Notes under the pieces: generated by a model
What the model was told of the DNA's origin: nothing
Database searches by the model: none
The model's input: the letters and a program-made list of their open reading frames with translations, nothing else
Assembly (NCBI RefSeq): GCF_012641075.1
Contig: NZ_JAAXLJ010000005.1
Location: 62,001 to 126,000, forward strand
DNA: 64,000 nt
DNA from: Secundilactobacillus angelensis
Lineage (GTDB): Bacteria; Bacillota; Bacilli; Lactobacillales; Lactobacillaceae
Direction of reading: 5' to 3'
Shown here: one piece after another, positions 5,418-62,999 of the stretch
How the letters are laid out: every line of letters begins with the position of its first letter
Numbering within the stretch: position 1 is the first letter of the stretch
Position numbers and translations under genes: made by a program

Positions 5418-5471
5418 GCAATTATTAAAAACTAATTTGAAAATATGCGTGATGAAAACGAGGGATATCTG

Positions 5472-6563
5472 ATGAGTGAGAAATTACGAGTAGGAATTAT
5501 TGGTGCAACGGGTATGGTTGGTCAGCGATTTATCAAGATTTTGGCCGATCACCCTTGGTTTGAGATTGCTTTGGTTGCCGCCAGTGCTCACAGTGCTGGC
5601 AAGACCTATGAAGATGCTGTTAAGGGCCGTTGGAAGATGGAAGGCGACGTTCCTGAACAAGTCAAAGGGATGGTTCTTCATGACGCTGCTAAAGTTGATG
5701 AAATCGCGCCTCAAGTTGATTTCATTTTTAGCGCCATCAAGCTAGATAAGGCTGACACTCGTAAGTTGGAAGAGGCGTATGCCAAAGCAGAAACCCCAGT
5801 TGTTTCCAATAACAGTGCTCACCGTTGGACGCCAGACGTTCCAATGGTGATTCCCGAAGTTAACCCGGATCACACTGATGTCATCAAGTATCAAAGGGAA
5901 CGCCTTGGCACGACTCGCGGTTTTATTGCTGTAAAGCCGAACTGTTCTATCCAAAGCTACACGCCGGCGTTATCAGCATGGCGTCAATTTGAACCTACAC
6001 AAGTGATTGCGACAACGTATCAAGCTATTTCAGGTGCGGGTAAGACGTTTAAAGACTGGCCAGAAATGGAAGGCAACGTTATTCCTTACATCGCTGGTGA
6101 GGAAGCCAAGTCAGAAGGCGAACCGCTGAAGATTTGGGGCCACGTTGATGACGAGAAAAAGGCCATCGTGCCAGCAGAAGATACGGTGATTACGTCTCAA
6201 TGTATTCGGATTCCAGTCCTGTATGGGCATACTGCCGCAGCCTTTGTTAACTTCCGTCAGCACCCATCGAAGCAGGATTTAATTGATGCTTTGGAAAGTT
6301 ACACGGGTGAACCACAACGTTTGGGATTGCCAAGTGCACCGAAGCAATTTATTCGTTATATGACTGAGGATGACCGTCCTCAAGTTCGCCTGGACGTGAA
6401 CTTTGAGCACGGTATGGGTGTTTCCATCGGTCGGCTTCGCGAAGACAAAATTTTTGATTGGAAATTTGTCGGTTTGTCACATAACACGGCCCGTGGCGCT
6501 GCTGGTGGTGCCGTTGAATGTGCGGAATTATTGAAGGCGCAGGGCTACATTACTGCTAAATAA
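5472..6563 (+). CDS. asd: Aspartate-semialdehyde dehydrogenase (archaeal/fungal-like class)
   Basis: Asd makes aspartate semialdehyde, the branch point for lysine, threonine and methionine. I start at 5472 because a GAGGGA site lies just upstream and the protein then begins MSEKLRVGIIGATGMVG, the NADP-binding loop. The catalytic Cys158 is in KPNCSIQSY and a catalytic His lies in LYGHTAAAFV. The 363-residue length and the block SNNSAHRWTPDVPMVIPEVNPDH resemble the long archaeal/fungal class rather than the usual roughly 330-residue bacterial class. An open stretch extends upstream to an ATG at 5445 without a ribosome binding site. Confidence 0.94.
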   Translation: MSEKLRVGIIGATGMVGQRFIKILADHPWFEIALVAASAHSAGKTYEDAVKGRWKMEGDVPEQVKGMVLHDAAKVDEIAPQVDFIFSAIKLDKADTRKLEEAYAKAETPVVSNNSAHRWTPDVPMVIPEVNPDHTDVIKYQRERLGTTRGFIAVKPNCSIQSYTPALSAWRQFEPTQVIATTYQAISGAGKTFKDWPEMEGNVIPYIAGEEAKSEGEPLKIWGHVDDEKKAIVPAEDTVITSQCIRIPVLYGHTAAAFVNFRQHPSKQDLIDALESYTGEPQRLGLPSAPKQFIRYMTEDDRPQVRLDVNFEHGMGVSIGRLREDKIFDWKFVGLSHNTARGAAGGAVECAELLKAQGYITAK

Positions 6564-6566
6564 ACA

Positions 6567-6690
6567 GAGTGTGAAAACAAGCGTTCAGAGAGTGGAGAAT
6601 AAGGCGCAACCAATGGAAATCCCAGTTTTGGATTTCTGTTGGCTGTGCCTTATTTGCAACTCTCTGTTTGGTTGAGCACGTTTCAAATAA
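6567..6690 (+). repeat. Hairpin element family A, copy 1
   Basis: This imperfect palindrome of about 124 bp starts GAGTGTGAA and ends CACGTTTCAAATA. The outer arms (CAGAGAGT with ACTCTCTG) enclose an inner stem (AATAAGGC with GCCTTATT) and the family centre (GAAATCC with GGATTTC). It shares its frame with copies at 6694, 35220, 35345 and 40551 but has its own inner arm sequence. It lies directly after the asd stop and has no run of T typical of a terminator. Confidence 0.8.
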
Positions 6691-6693
6691 ATA

Positions 6694-6816
6694 GAGTGTG
6701 AGTAGAAGCGATTAGAGACTGGAGCGTAGTGAAGTTATGGTGAAAATCCCGAACTTGGATTTGTGCCATGACTTTATTACGTGCAAGTCTCTGCTTCGCC
6801 GAGCACGTTTCAAATA
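6694..6816 (+). repeat. Hairpin element family A, copy 2
   Basis: A second copy follows copy 1 head to tail after 3 bases, starting GAGTGTGAG and ending CACGTTTCAAATA. Outer arms are AGAGACT with AGTCTCT. The inner arms (GCGTAGTGAAGTTATGG with CCATGACTTTATTACG) pair with a few mismatches and do not match those of copy 1. The centre is AAATCC with GGATTT. Together the two copies fill most of the 358-bp gap before recQ. Confidence 0.8.
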
Positions 6817-14946: not shown

Positions 14947-14998
14947 CAGCGGATATATGATGATTCGGAACAAGCCATCATTTTTGAGCAGTTTATTG

Positions 14999-15027
14999 TT
15001 GCACTTTTTTGGATTACCTGTTATATT
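14999..15027 (+). promoter_or_regulatory. Promoter and start of the cold-shock leader
   Basis: TTGCAC (14999-15004) and TATATT (15022-15027) are 17 bases apart. Transcription from here would give a leader of about 110 bases before the ATG at 15146. Long leaders that control translation at low temperature are known for csp genes; here only the length is seen. Confidence 0.7.
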
Positions 15028-15145
15028 ATTGTTAATGTATTTATGCTTCGGAATTAAGGTACAACGTTCTTTTTAGAATGGCTCCTTATTCAAAAGTTTC
15101 AAATGCAAAATTTATTTGCGCATGGCGCATGGAGGTTTCATTCTA

Positions 15146-15346
15146 ATGGAACAAGGTACTGTTAAATGGTTCAACGCTGACAAAGGTTACGGTTTTATCA
15201 CTCTTGAAAACGGCTCAGATGTATTCGTACATTTCTCAGCTATCAATGCTGACGGCTTCAAGACTCTTGAAGAAGGCCAAAAGGTAACTTTGGATGTTGA
15301 AGACGGCGACCGCGGCCCACAAGCTGCTAACGTTACTGTTGCTTAA
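15146..15346 (+). CDS. cspA: Cold-shock protein
   Basis: This 66-residue single-domain cold-shock protein is an RNA chaperone that binds single-stranded nucleic acid through RNP1 (KGYGFITL) and RNP2 (VFVHFSAI). I start at 15146 because GGAGG lies 10 bases upstream and the protein then begins [10 protein letters not shown]; an open stretch upstream to 15116 is leader. A strong terminator follows. Its letter (cspA, B or C) within the species cannot be fixed. Confidence 0.95.
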
Positions 15347-15363
15347 TTCTTAATTAAGCTAAT

Positions 15364-15397
15364 AAAAACCACCAATCATTTTGATTGGTGGTTTTTT
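15364..15397. terminator. Terminator of the cold-shock gene
   Basis: A 15-bp stem (AAAAACCACCAATCA with TGATTGGTGGTTTTT) and a T-run follow the stop codon. The A-rich left arm could also stop minus-strand transcription from ydbT. Confidence 0.9.
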
Positions 15398-19017: not shown

Positions 19018-19404
19018 ATGTTTAGGTACTACGTGGCGTTAGGAATTTCAATCGTAACCGAGATTCTCGGGGCGATTTCACTGAAATTATCAAGGGAATT
19101 CACACAGTTTTCCTGGACGTTTCTATGCATTGGCGTTTTTTTAATCATGCTCTATAGCCTGTCATATGCTATGCGTGTCGTACCTTTGAGTGTTGCTTAT
19201 GGCGTATGGTCAGGTGCTGGAACAGTCTTAACCGCTGCAGTCGATGTGACCCTGTTTCACCAAACCTTTTCAATTGGTGAGCTCCTTGGATTGGCACTTA
19301 TCGTGGTTGGTATCGTGTCTCTGAACTGGTCTGGTGAAGCTGAAGAGGAAATCGATTACGAGGCATTGCAGGTGGAAAATAAGATGAACGTAAAGGGGCT
19401 GTGA
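19018..19404 (+). CDS. SMR-family efflux protein, second of a pair
   Basis: A 128-residue SMR protein with Glu15 in TM1 (ISIVTEILGAISLKLS), the TM3 block VAYGVWSGAGTV, and a C-terminal cytoplasmic tail of about 20 residues rich in Glu (EAEEEIDYEAL) not present in its partner. One partner with a longer tail is common in paired SMR systems and can fix orientation in the membrane. The stop codon lies inside the first bases of hairpin element B1, so the C-terminus may have been altered when that element arrived. Confidence 0.88.
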   Translation: MFRYYVALGISIVTEILGAISLKLSREFTQFSWTFLCIGVFLIMLYSLSYAMRVVPLSVAYGVWSGAGTVLTAAVDVTLFHQTFSIGELLGLALIVVGIVSLNWSGEAEEEIDYEALQVENKMNVKGL

Positions 19405-19511
19405 CACAACTCGGTAGATTCCAGAGTATAACGCAGAACAATGTCATTCCGATGGCCTTTATCGGGATGGCGTTGTTCTGCGTTATATGGCCGGAATCTG
19501 AGTTGTGGAAC
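19401..19511 (+). repeat. Hairpin element family B, copy 1
   Basis: An imperfect palindrome begins GTGACACAACTCGG and ends GGCCGGAATCTGAGTTGTG. Conserved outer parts (GATTCCAGAGT and ATGGCCGGAATCTGAG) flank a variable inner stem (AACGCAGAACAA with TTGTTCTGCGTT). The reverse complement of 62801-62910 has the same outer parts with a different inner stem. It overlaps the stop codon of the second SMR gene. Confidence 0.82.
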
Positions 19512-19593
19512 AGGTTAAGGCTATGTGCAAGTAATGAACTAAATCCTTGTCGATATAGACTTATGTCACAATCCCTTCACATTTTTGGAAAAC

Positions 19594-35126: not shown

Positions 35127-35188
35127 GAATATATGCTCCTTTGTTCTTTTATGAATTCAACAGTTATAATGGTACACCAAAAAACGAA

Positions 35189-35218
35189 GGTGCGAAAGCA
35201 AACGTTTTGAGACTGGCA
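35189..35218 (+). repeat. Truncated left arm of a family A hairpin element
   Basis: GGTGCGAAAGCAAACG through GAGACTGGC repeats the left end of family A copies, then stops abruptly where the next full copy begins. It looks like the remnant of a deleted or recombined copy. Confidence 0.65.
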
Positions 35219-35219
35219 T

Positions 35220-35339
35220 GGTGTGGAAGCAAGCGTTTAGAGACTGGAGCCTAAGTTACTTCTGGCAGAAAATCCCCGGGATTGGGATTTTTGCCAGAAG
35301 TGACTTAGGTGCAAGTCTCTGCTTGCTGGAACCCGAATA
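35220..35339 (+). repeat. Hairpin element family A, copy 3
   Basis: The copy has outer arms GCAAGC and AGAGACT with AGTCTCT and GCTTGC, and inner arms CCTAAGT, ACTTCTGGCAGAAAATCCC pairing with GGGATTTTTGCCAGAAGT and ACTTAGG. It begins GGTGTGGAAGC and ends GGAACCCGAATA. It lies between the divergent map and Zn peptidase genes. Confidence 0.82.
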
Positions 35340-35344
35340 GGCAA

Positions 35345-35463
35345 GGTGTGGAAGCGGACGTTTTGAGAGCGGTGTGTAAGCAGGTAACGTTAAGAGCCTT
35401 GGGCTTGGGGGCTTATAACGTTACCTGCTTACACGTAGCTCTCAGTCCGCTGGAACCCGATTA
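35345..35463 (+). repeat. Hairpin element family A, copy 4
   Basis: The copy follows copy 3 head to tail. Outer arms are GCGGAC and GAGAGC, pairing with GCTCTC and GTCCGC; the inner stem GTGTAAGCAGGTAACGTTA pairs with TAACGTTACCTGCTTACAC. It shares ends (GGTGTGGAAGC, GGAACCCGATTA) with copy 3 but none of the inner sequence. The central AAATCCC of other copies is replaced by AGAGCC with GGGGGCT. Confidence 0.82.
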
Positions 35464-35512
35464 AGCTATATAACAGATTCCCCCCCATAACCTTAAGCAT
35501 TCATTAAATTTC

Positions 35513-38762: not shown

Positions 38763-38853
38763 ATTAATTTCTCATTTTTCTATTTTCGTTCGGCTTTTTT
38801 TAAGCTACAATAGAGCTATGCAAATTAGTTGCATTGGAAGGAGAATTGTCCAC

Positions 38854-40551
38854 ATGACTGAGTCAGGAAAAGTAGAAACATCTGCGTTATACATGAATCC
38901 GGATCGAGAAGTTGCCGTACTTAATTATACGAACAAGTACGTTTCCGATATCTTTACATTGATCAATAGTAAAGAACTAGAGGAAGTTGTTCGTTTGTTT
39001 TTAGAGGATCGTCGTCATACTCAAGAGAGTAATCGAAGCGATTTTGAGGATGCGGATCCAAAAACTTACATCGATACGTTAAAGGCGGTACTGCTTGATC
39101 GTCCTGATGCTTTTGAAACTTATAAGCGTGAAGAAATCTTGTATAGCGTTGAAGATTTGTATTCATACTACCGATCATATCTTCGAATCGGAGTTGTCAA
39201 CCTGCATGGCAGTGAAGCTACTTCCAAGAATTTCATGCAAATGGATAATAAATTTAACGATGTTGTCATTGAAGCTTACCGGACAATTGAAGAAAAATTG
39301 CAAGGCTTCCGTAATAAGACTTATCGTCAGGTGAGCGCTGGGACTTCAGCTTGTGTGTTGACACAATCATTAGATTGGCCAATTCCAAGCGGCTACGAAG
39401 CGTTGAAGCCTATTCGATTCCTGGAGACCCTGATGTTGCGGCCACCAATGATGATGAAGACACCTTCAAATAAACGTGAAGGAACTTTTACCGCTGTTCC
39501 TGACAATCCAATCGATAAATTCCACGGATCAAGAAACGAATGGTACTGCTTCCCAGCTAAAATTGGTGAGAGCTTGGCTTACATCTACTTCCATCGTGAT
39601 TACTTTGTCAGTGGTATTTCCTTGGCTAACTTGTTTGAAGTTGCCAGTGCCAAAGATGTTGCCGGTCATAAGCCAGACGAGATCCTGCTGTTCGGTTTGC
39701 AAAAAACTGAAGGCGATGTTTGCCATTATCACCACGATGAAGAAAACGATATTTGGGTCGGTGAAGTGCCATATAACGACAAGACCACTTACTTCGGTTA
39801 CATGAAGAAAATGTGCTTAACGTTGCATAACCTGCACATGATCTACGAAAACCGCTTGCCAATTCATGGCTCAATGGTGCGAATCAAGTTCGCTAACGGT
39901 AAGAATAAAAACGTGGTCTTCTTCGGCGATTCAGGTGCCGGGAAGTCTGAATCACTGGAAGCCTTACAAGAAATTGCGGATGACAAGATTCTCAGTCTTG
40001 AAACGATTTTTGATGATATGGGTAGCTTTACGCTAACGGATGATGATTTGTATGCGCAAGGGACTGAAATTGGGGCATTCGTGCGACTAGATGATTTAAG
40101 CTCTGCCGTGGCCTTCAATAATATGGACCGTGGTGTTTACTTGAACCCAGACCGGAAGAATGCTCGGGTCATTATTCCAGCGGATCCGTATAATCGAGTT
40201 GTGGGCCACCACGGGATCGATATGTGGGTCTATGCCAACAACTATGATAAGGACATTGGTATTCACCGTTTTGATAATGAAGAGGAAGCCAAGGCAACCT
40301 TCATAGAAGGCAAGCGCTTTGCGTTAGGGACTACCGATGAAGTCGGCATGAGCACAACTTTCTTTGCTAACCCATTTGGGCCAGTGCAAGAAGAAGCCAA
40401 AACGCGGCCAATAATCGACAAGGTATTTAAACGTCTATTCGATCAAGGGGTCTATGTAGGTGAAATTTACACCCACCTTGGTACGGATAAGAGTAAGGAT
40501 AGCTTGAATGAAAGTGCTAGAGAACTGTTGGATGAGTTGTGGAACTCATAG
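38854..40551 (+). CDS. PEPCK/HprK-superfamily ATPase (annotated as PEP carboxykinase in lactobacilli)
   Basis: A 565-residue protein starting at ATG 38854 (AAGGAG upstream). The P-loop VVFFGDSGAGKSESLEAL (about 358-366) matches the HPr kinase type (GDSGxGKSE) more than the ATP-PEPCK type (GLSGTGKTT). A second acidic motif, ETIFDDMGSF, lies 30 residues further, and a basic block RPPMMMKTPSNKREGTF lies in the N-terminal half. Lactobacillus homologues are, as I recall, labelled phosphoenolpyruvate carboxykinase. I am sure of the fold, less so of the reaction. It is a single gene followed by family A repeats. Confidence 0.75.
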   Translation: MTESGKVETSALYMNPDREVAVLNYTNKYVSDIFTLINSKELEEVVRLFLEDRRHTQESNRSDFEDADPKTYIDTLKAVLLDRPDAFETYKREEILYSVEDLYSYYRSYLRIGVVNLHGSEATSKNFMQMDNKFNDVVIEAYRTIEEKLQGFRNKTYRQVSAGTSACVLTQSLDWPIPSGYEALKPIRFLETLMLRPPMMMKTPSNKREGTFTAVPDNPIDKFHGSRNEWYCFPAKIGESLAYIYFHRDYFVSGISLANLFEVASAKDVAGHKPDEILLFGLQKTEGDVCHYHHDEENDIWVGEVPYNDKTTYFGYMKKMCLTLHNLHMIYENRLPIHGSMVRIKFANGKNKNVVFFGDSGAGKSESLEALQEIADDKILSLETIFDDMGSFTLTDDDLYAQGTEIGAFVRLDDLSSAVAFNNMDRGVYLNPDRKNARVIIPADPYNRVVGHHGIDMWVYANNYDKDIGIHRFDNEEEAKATFIEGKRFALGTTDEVGMSTTFFANPFGPVQEEAKTRPIIDKVFKRLFDQGVYVGEIYTHLGTDKSKDSLNESARELLDELWNS

Positions 40552-40676
40552 AGCGTGAACCGCGGCGTTTAGATAGCGGCGTGTAAGACAAGAACCACCT
40601 AAATCCCTGAACTTGGGATTTGGGTGGTTCTTGTCTTACACATAGCTGTCTGCCGCGGTGAACGCGTTTCAGCAAG
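40551..40676 (+). repeat. Hairpin element family A, copy 5
   Basis: Outer arms CCGCGG and GATAGC pair with GCTGTC and CCGCGG. The inner stem GTGTAAGACAAGAACCACC pairs with GGTGGTTCTTGTCTTACAC and the centre is AAATCCC with GGGATTT. It begins GAGCGTGAAC, directly at the stop of the PEPCK-like gene, and ends CGCGTTTCAGCAAG. Confidence 0.82.
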
Positions 40677-40762
40677 GTAATAGGAACCAAGCCCGAACTT
40701 GGAATTTGCGTGGCTCTCGTCTTACACATAGCTATCTGCCGTGGTGAGCGCGTTTCAGCAAG
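40677..40762 (+). repeat. Hairpin element family A, partial copy 6
   Basis: This segment repeats the centre (GGAACCAAGCCCGAACTTGG) and the right arm of copy 5 (GTCTTACACATAGCTATCTGCC, then CGCGTTTCAGCAAG) but has lost the left arm, so it can no longer fold fully. Its right arm matches copy 5 closely, which points to a recent local duplication. Confidence 0.75.
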
Positions 40763-40809
40763 GTAACATTACGAAAGTATTAACATTCTGAAAATCCATC
40801 ACATATCCC

Positions 40810-62558: not shown

Positions 62559-62800
62559 TTGATAACCTCCATCTTGTATGTAAACTGTTTTCATTATACT
62601 GCTACGCTGACTAGTTTGACACCAAATGTAATGGTGAATTACCCGCCGCTAAAGTCACCAGCGTTTAACTGCGATATTGCTTTTAGAATATCACTAGCAA
62701 ACGTATGTTCTCATTATACTATATCTCAACCAGATTACCAGCTCACGATGCAAGAAAAAGCAATTCATGACTTCCTCGACTTCAATATAGCCTAATCGAG
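62559..62800. other. Upstream region of pepO with two similar -10 elements
   Basis: Two minus-strand TATAAT boxes lie at 62593-62598 and 62713-62718, each within the shared context TTNTCATTATACT (plus strand). The first is about 35 bp before the pepO start, the second 120 bp further. Clear -35 boxes are not seen. An open stretch on the plus strand here has no ribosome site and is not called. Confidence 0.45.
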
Positions 62801-62910
62801 CGTCAAAACTCAGATTCCGGCCATGCAATACAAATAAGACTAATCCCGACAAAGTACAACGGGATTAGTCTTATTTGTGTTACACTCTGGAATCAACCGA
62901 GTTTTGTCAC
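62801..62910 (-). repeat. Hairpin element family B, copy 2
   Basis: Read on the minus strand it begins GTGACAAAACTCGG and ends GGCCGGAATCTGAGTTTTG, matching copy 1 at 19401 in its outer parts. The inner stem ACAAATAAGACTAATCCCG pairs with CGGGATTAGTCTTATTTGT and is unrelated in sequence to that of copy 1. Confidence 0.82.
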
Positions 62911-62999
62911 TCACTCTGCCAATTTATTATTCACGCGCGACTTCAGTTTGGTAACAACCCAACGAATCGTAAGTTGAGCTTCAGAAAGTTGGTTTCTGT

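Follow-up and report, generated by a model that had tools for sequence, protein, structure and literature searches.

A REP/MITE-like hairpin repeat family of the Lactobacillales that is often placed at stop codons and may act as a 3'-end RNA element

Our preferred explanation for the hairpin elements of Secundilactobacillus angelensis, whose chances we consider evenly balanced, is that they belong to a REP/MITE-like repeat family of the Lactobacillales acting as 3'-end RNA hairpins, with the terminator dispensable and with whole-hairpin exchange among copies. Short non-coding palindromic repeats, single or head-to-tail, would set their 5' end against a stop codon and, in the mRNA, form one long hairpin, a 3'-end structure stabilising or delimiting the upstream transcript; an ordinary intrinsic terminator would therefore be dispensable and in many cases absent. 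The sequence would be renewed mainly by copies exchanging whole hairpins, with selection on one single strand tolerating G.U in addition. We infer that the hairpin acts at the mRNA 3' end, where REP hairpins act too; REPs near stop codons were reportedly described by Liang, Rudd and Deutscher in 2015. A bolder version, in which an order-wide mobile hairpin with a single-stranded + strand, perhaps RNA, places itself at stop codons, replaces terminators and serves as a block-refreshed mRNA 3'-end element, appears doubtful to us. A numerous non-coding lactobacillus repeat that occupies the terminator positions of relatives and can supply a stop codon is of general interest, since annotation and expression models would miss a standard part if the element forms or protects mRNA 3' ends. 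In addition, copy-rich and copy-free species within one genus (G204, G038) render both function and mobility testable.

The host assembly is a 2.6-Mb draft genome, of which the 64-kb stretch of DNA analysed here (the window) is part. A preliminary description of the window had listed five full copies. All five were recovered where it had placed them, but a search with R2, one of our two family models (R1, R2) and able to detect also a sister type, brought the total to seven, two of them being of this sister type with the same frame, besides partial copies at about 35187-35217 and at 40690-40763:

6566..6691, + strand: full element 1 (112.1 bits with R2), beginning 2 nt past the stop codon (6561-6563) of ORF 5445..6563
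6692..6816, + strand: full element 2 (110.5 bits with R2), head-to-tail after element 1
19395..19526, + strand: full element of the sister type, with ends CTCGGTAGATTCC..GGAATCTGAG (81.3 bits with R2)
35187..35217, + strand: truncated copy, 5' part (by eye), complete in G009 at the orthologous position
35221..35346, + strand: full element 3 (115.8 bits with R2), in the gap between divergent genes
35343..35471, + strand: full element 4 (127.6 bits with R1), head-to-tail after element 3
40549..40678, + strand: full element 5 (128.5 bits with R2), whose opening TAG is the stop codon of ORF 38818..40551
40690..40763, + strand: decayed second copy, 3' part
62785..62916, - strand: full element of the sister type (75.4 bits with R2)

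For element 4 only an opposite-strand match was listed with R2, the probable cause being its overlap with element 3. The first of the sister-type elements likewise touches a gene, as ORF 19018..19404 terminates within its first ten bases. The earlier view that the copies lie outside genes is thus too simple for those at 6566 and 40549, and the placement at stop codons had been missed.

Full copies are about 120-140 bases long (typically about 125) and contain no gene. The five original copies share a common fold of 46 pairs, in which an outer helix of 4 bp is followed by stem 1 (7-8 bp), a 4-nt 5' bulge of the type GNTT, stem 2 (7 bp), a 3x3 internal loop and a stem of about 27 bp closed by a loop of about 7 nt. 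Their folding z-scores were -8.5, -7.4, -9.1, -9.1 and -11.8, with none of 200 dinucleotide shuffles equalling a copy. The AAATCC/GGATTT pair noticed earlier is present at the tip of four of the five copies, being absent from the one at 35345, and the one-sided bulge, of four nucleotides on the 5' side, stands behind a C-G pair that is invariant in 89/89 copies. In an alignment of these 89 copies (88 distinct), itself fitted to the covariance model, 42 of the 46 pairs varied on both sides with 94.4% of cells paired, in agreement with the claim that the arms differ and pair nonetheless. Cells changed on both sides numbered 1037, compared with 288 +/- 19 after shuffling, and no shuffle out of 500 attained any of five covariation measures; sliding the partners by 1-3 columns left 162-224 both-side cells and lowered pairing from 94% to 37-47%. 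Among the unpaired bases, A2, G9, G19 and T21 (these two in the bulge), A138 and T145-T146 (in the tail) are near-invariant, and the motif C-G-N-T-T is common to bulge and tail. The T-run is indeed missing behind the hairpin, the tail consisting of C-G-N-T-T and then mixed bases, and the ends occur as two covarying types, AGAG..CACGTTT and AAGG..CCCGATT.

The two strands of the element are not equivalent. Among 80 elements aligned by a sequence-only profile, 84% of 3632 cells were Watson-Crick, and G.T wobbles (287) far exceeded A.C mismatches (30), with 250 other mismatches; omission of the conserved G.T beside the internal loop left 225 versus 27 (76 elements). In clear-majority columns of the structure-scored set, which is biased towards wobble since such pairs enter the model's score, changes of C>T versus G>A in G-C pairs stood at 28:3 and those of A>G versus T>C in A-T pairs at 12:3; since A>G is in excess besides C>T, deamination bias alone is insufficient. 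Equal numbers of G.T and A.C are expected in double-stranded DNA, so the ratio of 287:30 implies that one single strand is kept. The asymmetry was the same with the upstream gene opposed (49:5, 17 elements) as for elements adjoining the stop codon of a co-oriented gene (163:21, 53 elements). It is therefore a property of the element's own + strand and does not arise from per-site selection on the mRNA of the neighbour. It shows that one strand is recognised in single-stranded form, RNA and single-stranded DNA fitting alike, and we take it to reflect a single-stranded phase, of either nucleic acid, through which the element or the copies it derives from have passed.

Placement was counted for 116 elements forming 83 arrays in 861 kb of two genomes (S. 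angelensis and G009), with ORF calls and a terminator score purpose-made for the present analysis; 78 arrays had a called gene on both sides and the other five were dropped. A co-oriented gene precedes 66 of the 78, and in 51 of these 66 cases the array starts between -25 and +8 nt from the stop codon of that gene, where uniform random placement within the gap predicts 9.5 (maximum 17 in 2000 trials). Restricting the count to profile-only elements gave the same picture (58 arrays, 47 behind a co-oriented gene and 41 near its stop codon, 7.4 expected), and sister-type arrays alone are placed more loosely (9/19 near a stop codon, 1.9 expected). The placement is polar: arrays in tandem gaps are co-oriented in 27 cases versus 7 opposed (p 0.0008), and an element's 3' end abuts an opposing stop codon in 2/46. 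Of 19 loci from other genomes, two of them of the same genus, 11 start -3 to +5 nt from a co-oriented stop codon. The reading frame often ends in a TAG or TAA belonging to the element itself. Inspection of the 40549 site by eye showed the element complete and abutting the stop codon in seven genomes of the genus, S. angelensis among them, and internally deleted in G012; G010 has a different element-like hairpin, a terminator-like hairpin follows TAA in G005 and G002 and TAG in G011, and in G004, G007 and G014 TAA is present and the element is not, the out-of-register G003 row having been left out. Here and at two sites of G009 (by eye), the last protein residues are unchanged whether or not the element is present. 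A 3'-end role is not obvious for other arrays, namely those behind a complete terminator (a few directly behind the T-run, also locus L263 and plasmid L315), those between divergent genes (e.g. 35221) and plasmid elements in antisense orientation, some among PTS genes and some separating lacT from lacE. At the site of elements 3 and 4, S. pentosiphilus (G008, L190) shows by eye, about 600 bases upstream of the gene, what resembles the end of a transposon OrfB/TnpB-type gene.

The same observations can be accommodated, if somewhat improbably, by a purely selfish single-stranded DNA element whose + strand hairpin is the substrate of a putative single-strand transposase or recombinase and for which gene ends are merely tolerated. 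Such an element would show a strand asymmetry independent of neighbour direction, and G.T is the better-tolerated mismatch in DNA too; moreover, the near-invariant G19 and T21 of the bulge and T145 and T146 of the tail resemble protein contacts, and the arrays are polymorphic between species. On the other hand, stop-codon placement with an unchanged last residue at the compared sites needs more than tolerance to account for it. A REP-type transposase, suggested earlier as worth looking for, did not turn up: PF01797 had no match in the S. angelensis genome at E <= 0.001, which led us to reject HUH/RAYT mobilisation within this genome, nor any in G009, G002 or G005 (the element matches in the latter two being lower bounds), and matched in 7/15 genomes of the genus. 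Element strand also tracks gene strand (29:13 for elements, 205:97 for genes, in 400 kb of a single GC-skew sign), against selfish DNA and against insertion by replication strand, which was likewise rejected.

The preferred 3'-end reading anticipates fewer terminators behind the elements, and this was observed at convergent gene ends, where 4/20 had a terminator behind the element versus 107/174 without an element (p 0.0005). The difference was not significant at tandem ends (2/15 versus 80/232, p 0.15), and all ends of both genomes together gave 6/35 versus 187/406 (p 0.001), a count that sets aside 31 gene ends whose element is close to the stop codon without adjoining it and from which a 60-base minimum length removed 11/46 element rows. 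Because the terminator score can fire inside elements, only the stretch behind arrays was scored and the G009 interval scores were not used. With profile-only elements the numbers were 6/30 versus 201/430, sister-type hairpins being able to pass as terminators in the no-element group. At the 6566 site, the nearest named relatives of ORF 5445..6563 are S. mixtipabuli (98%) and S. silagincola (96%). Four elements stand there in S. silagincola; of the seven other named relatives, five lack the element and carry a terminator (scores 14.6-21.6), with scores of 11.6 in odoratitofui (cut 12) and 3.9 in collinoides. Behind the arrays the score was 4.3 in S. angelensis and 4.8 in S. silagincola. Along 166 kb of synteny, all six profile arrays of S. 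angelensis are common to G009, and 8/14 G009 arrays (seven sites) are absent in S. angelensis, 2/14 being not cleanly anchored, one of which is the shared 40549 site. At the seven G009-only sites the S. angelensis intervals score >=17 on one strand, two of them being sister elements. At three of them (109782, 197941, 205574; by eye) the element of G009 is accompanied by a terminator-like hairpin, which argues against simple replacement.

The preliminary description had also missed the spread of the family, which extends beyond the S. angelensis genome across the order. Raw R1/R2 counts (e.g. 123 in this genome) include opposite-strand duplicates and are inflated because the models match palindromes on either strand; duplicate removal reduced 134 matches to 87, ten of which (reversed, partial and sister-type rows) are omitted by the sequence profile. 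The profile yielded 92 elements in the 861 kb of S. angelensis and G009 and, with 24 R2-only elements, the 116 used above, 62 of them in 461 kb of S. angelensis. R1 found matches in 15/15 genomes of the genus and in 22/31 genomes overall, the own one included. With R2 the covariance-model search proposed earlier reached 148/251 Lactobacillaceae genomes in 23/36 genera (13 candidates scored per genome) and 44/198 genomes drawn from the order, including six families besides its own (17 candidates scored). Among 299 genomes of the phylum, under stricter filters and with 11 candidates scored, it matched its own genome only at 1e-5, so R2 seldom picks up ordinary hairpins. Ten chosen genomes, with up to 150 candidates scored and opposite-strand matches included, gave at least 150 (three genomes), 142, 130, 44, 35, 33, 2 and 0 matches. 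By eye and by folding, fourteen loci from other families of the order keep the frame.

This patchy distribution bears on a further alternative, in which the hairpin is a housekeeping RNA signal, either a new kind of terminator or a ribosome-coupled 3' signal, under per-site selection and with little mobility. The 40549 site, full in seven genomes of the genus and internally deleted in an eighth, would suit such a signal, as would the elements standing where relatives have terminators; the eight G009 arrays absent from the syntenic stretch of S. angelensis, the range from 0 to at least 150 matches among genomes of genus g24 and the lack of a match in 103/251 Lactobacillaceae genomes (13 candidates scored each) make it decidedly unlikely.

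Some of the distribution is probably due to transfer. The locus of family f8 is part of DNA identical to two Secundilactobacillus genomes, over 715 bases with S. angelensis, which indicates transfer and not old presence in f8. An identical element with its right flank was observed in S. angelensis (L029), G007 (L075) and the other-family genome G354 (L323), the identity between the last two covering 805 bases, and this sequence identity points to recent horizontal transfer of element-bearing DNA. Elements are also present on plasmids of Lacticaseibacillus paracasei, L. rhamnosus and Lactiplantibacillus plantarum; in plasmid blastn searches a g22 element retrieved 17 records, and neither element 3 of the window nor an f2 element had a match. 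A blastn match to an Enterococcus faecium plasmid was unconfirmed by the covariance model, and no named Enterococcus host is claimed. Carriage by phages was rejected, three different elements having no blastn match to phages, and the model recognised none of the 14 stretches returned by a pattern scan of viral contigs as an element. On the Klebsiella pneumoniae plasmid CP069368.1 (23362-23430) there is a 69-base, 78% blastn match to an f3 element, either chance or foreign DNA. Several S. angelensis contigs end in or beside elements (C2:1-80, C49:15-142, C70:1-77, C76:75-202, C85:171865-171937); assemblies may thus break there and copy numbers may be underestimated.

A clue to turnover comes from the plasmid man operon, where L. 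paracasei pMGB0245-2 and pMGB0734-3 differ at 11/1232 flanking positions versus 27/121 within the element, although each of the two hairpins can fold (-67.5 and -74.4 kcal/mol, respectively); the second of them also occurs on the Pediococcus inopinatus plasmid, with 21/1230 flanking differences. With flanks differing by 0.9% and a still folded hairpin by 22%, a swap of the whole hairpin explains the difference better than many compensations, and, judging from this one site, such swaps may account for much of the covariation between copies. The earlier proposal that structure is kept while sequence drifts, through selection or copying of the folded form, is supported on both counts, by the wobble excess and by the apparent hairpin swap at one site. 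At the man site of L. plantarum pLP12-1 (L317) only the 3' tail is left, following deletion between GAGCG repeats. L317 is therefore a deletion scar retaining the 3' tail, and we discarded it as a clean empty site. The plasmid elements L317 and L322 have lost the hairpin partly or wholly between short direct repeats (GAGCG / GAGCGC), a scar being left. Where the element is missing, the site is occupied by a terminator or by a sister element, and no target duplication was seen. Dispersed copies reach at most 92% identity in S. angelensis (44 elements) and 90% in G009 (37 elements), variable arms included, which implies that spread in these genomes is not very recent. A mobile or gene-converted hairpin, as proposed earlier, fits this evidence, and the elements may well be mobile. 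Repair templated by the hairpin in DNA alone (quasi-palindrome correction) would keep the arms complementary without any function and accords with arms that are very different between copies and pair nonetheless, but such repair acts equally on both strands and should yield as many A.C as G.T, as opposed to the observed 287 G.T versus 30 A.C, and with stems 1, 2 and 3 differing together at the plasmid site it is highly improbable.

Comparison with known systems places the element among repeats that work like REPs or MITEs. REPs (PU-BIMEs) are short extragenic palindromes mostly found behind coding regions, plausibly transcribed, whose GTAG ends often supply a TAG stop (PMC3733652). Location mainly behind genes (66/78 arrays) and the supply of stop codons are shared. 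REPs differ in their length of 20-40 bp versus about 125 bases and in the GTAG/CGTC tag at one end, whereas the 89-copy consensus has no fixed tag and the bases preceding AGAG vary among 62 arrays; the lactobacillus element has one bulged architecture order-wide, and its genome gave no match to a Y1 transposase. Judged by these features (tag, length and transposase) it falls outside the REP families. It is non-coding, dispersed, multicopy and polymorphic among relatives, as MITEs are. RUP, NEMIS, ERIC and YPAL are described as non-coding, dispersed, gene-adjacent and transcribed, their strong structures altering mRNA stability (PMC3733652); the present element shares the lack of coding, the dispersal, the position beside genes and the strong fold. 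It differs from other MITEs in having arms that vary freely; no target duplication was seen, the sites without an element being occupied by a terminator or a sister element. Intrinsic terminators are likewise hairpins at gene ends, whose place the elements occupy, but they consist of a short stem and a T-run instead of a rod of about 46 pairs with no T-run behind.

EFAR is modular, about 170 bp long, folds into two stem-loops and inserts into small stem-loops, removing most of them. This insertion resembles the terminator replacement at lactobacillus elements, and its two stem-loops set it apart, by description, from a single unbranched rod. It is a repeat of enterococci, in the same order, counted among bacterial MITEs (PMC3733652), and may be the same element as Efa-1 of E. 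faecalis, given as 163 nt, intergenic and present in 65 copies (PMC2267715). Lac-1 of L. johnsonii, which appears there as a genic family of 231 nt (PMC2267715), is unlike the hairpin element. EFAR, compared by description alone, remains the nearest possible relative. Our literature search found no paper on the hairpin family, most subscription papers being beyond its reach, so that this is no proof of novelty. Integron attC ends carry RYYYAAC / GTTRRRY boxes, which are lacking in the consensus start AGAGTGTG and the tail CGTTTC.

The absence of a named family, suspected at the outset, holds for Rfam release 15, where the window and 20 loci of other genomes gave at gathering score no more than cspA and a single tRNA, both away from any element; permissive limits added weak microRNA-type hairpin models and similar ones, all far below their cut-offs. 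The cspA thermoregulator RNA (RF01766) lies at 14954-15397 of the window (103.7 bits). Long near-perfect hairpins beside T-runs, seen by eye at about 8724, 28045, 45816 and 60605 of the window and outside the hairpin family, are probably bidirectional terminators.
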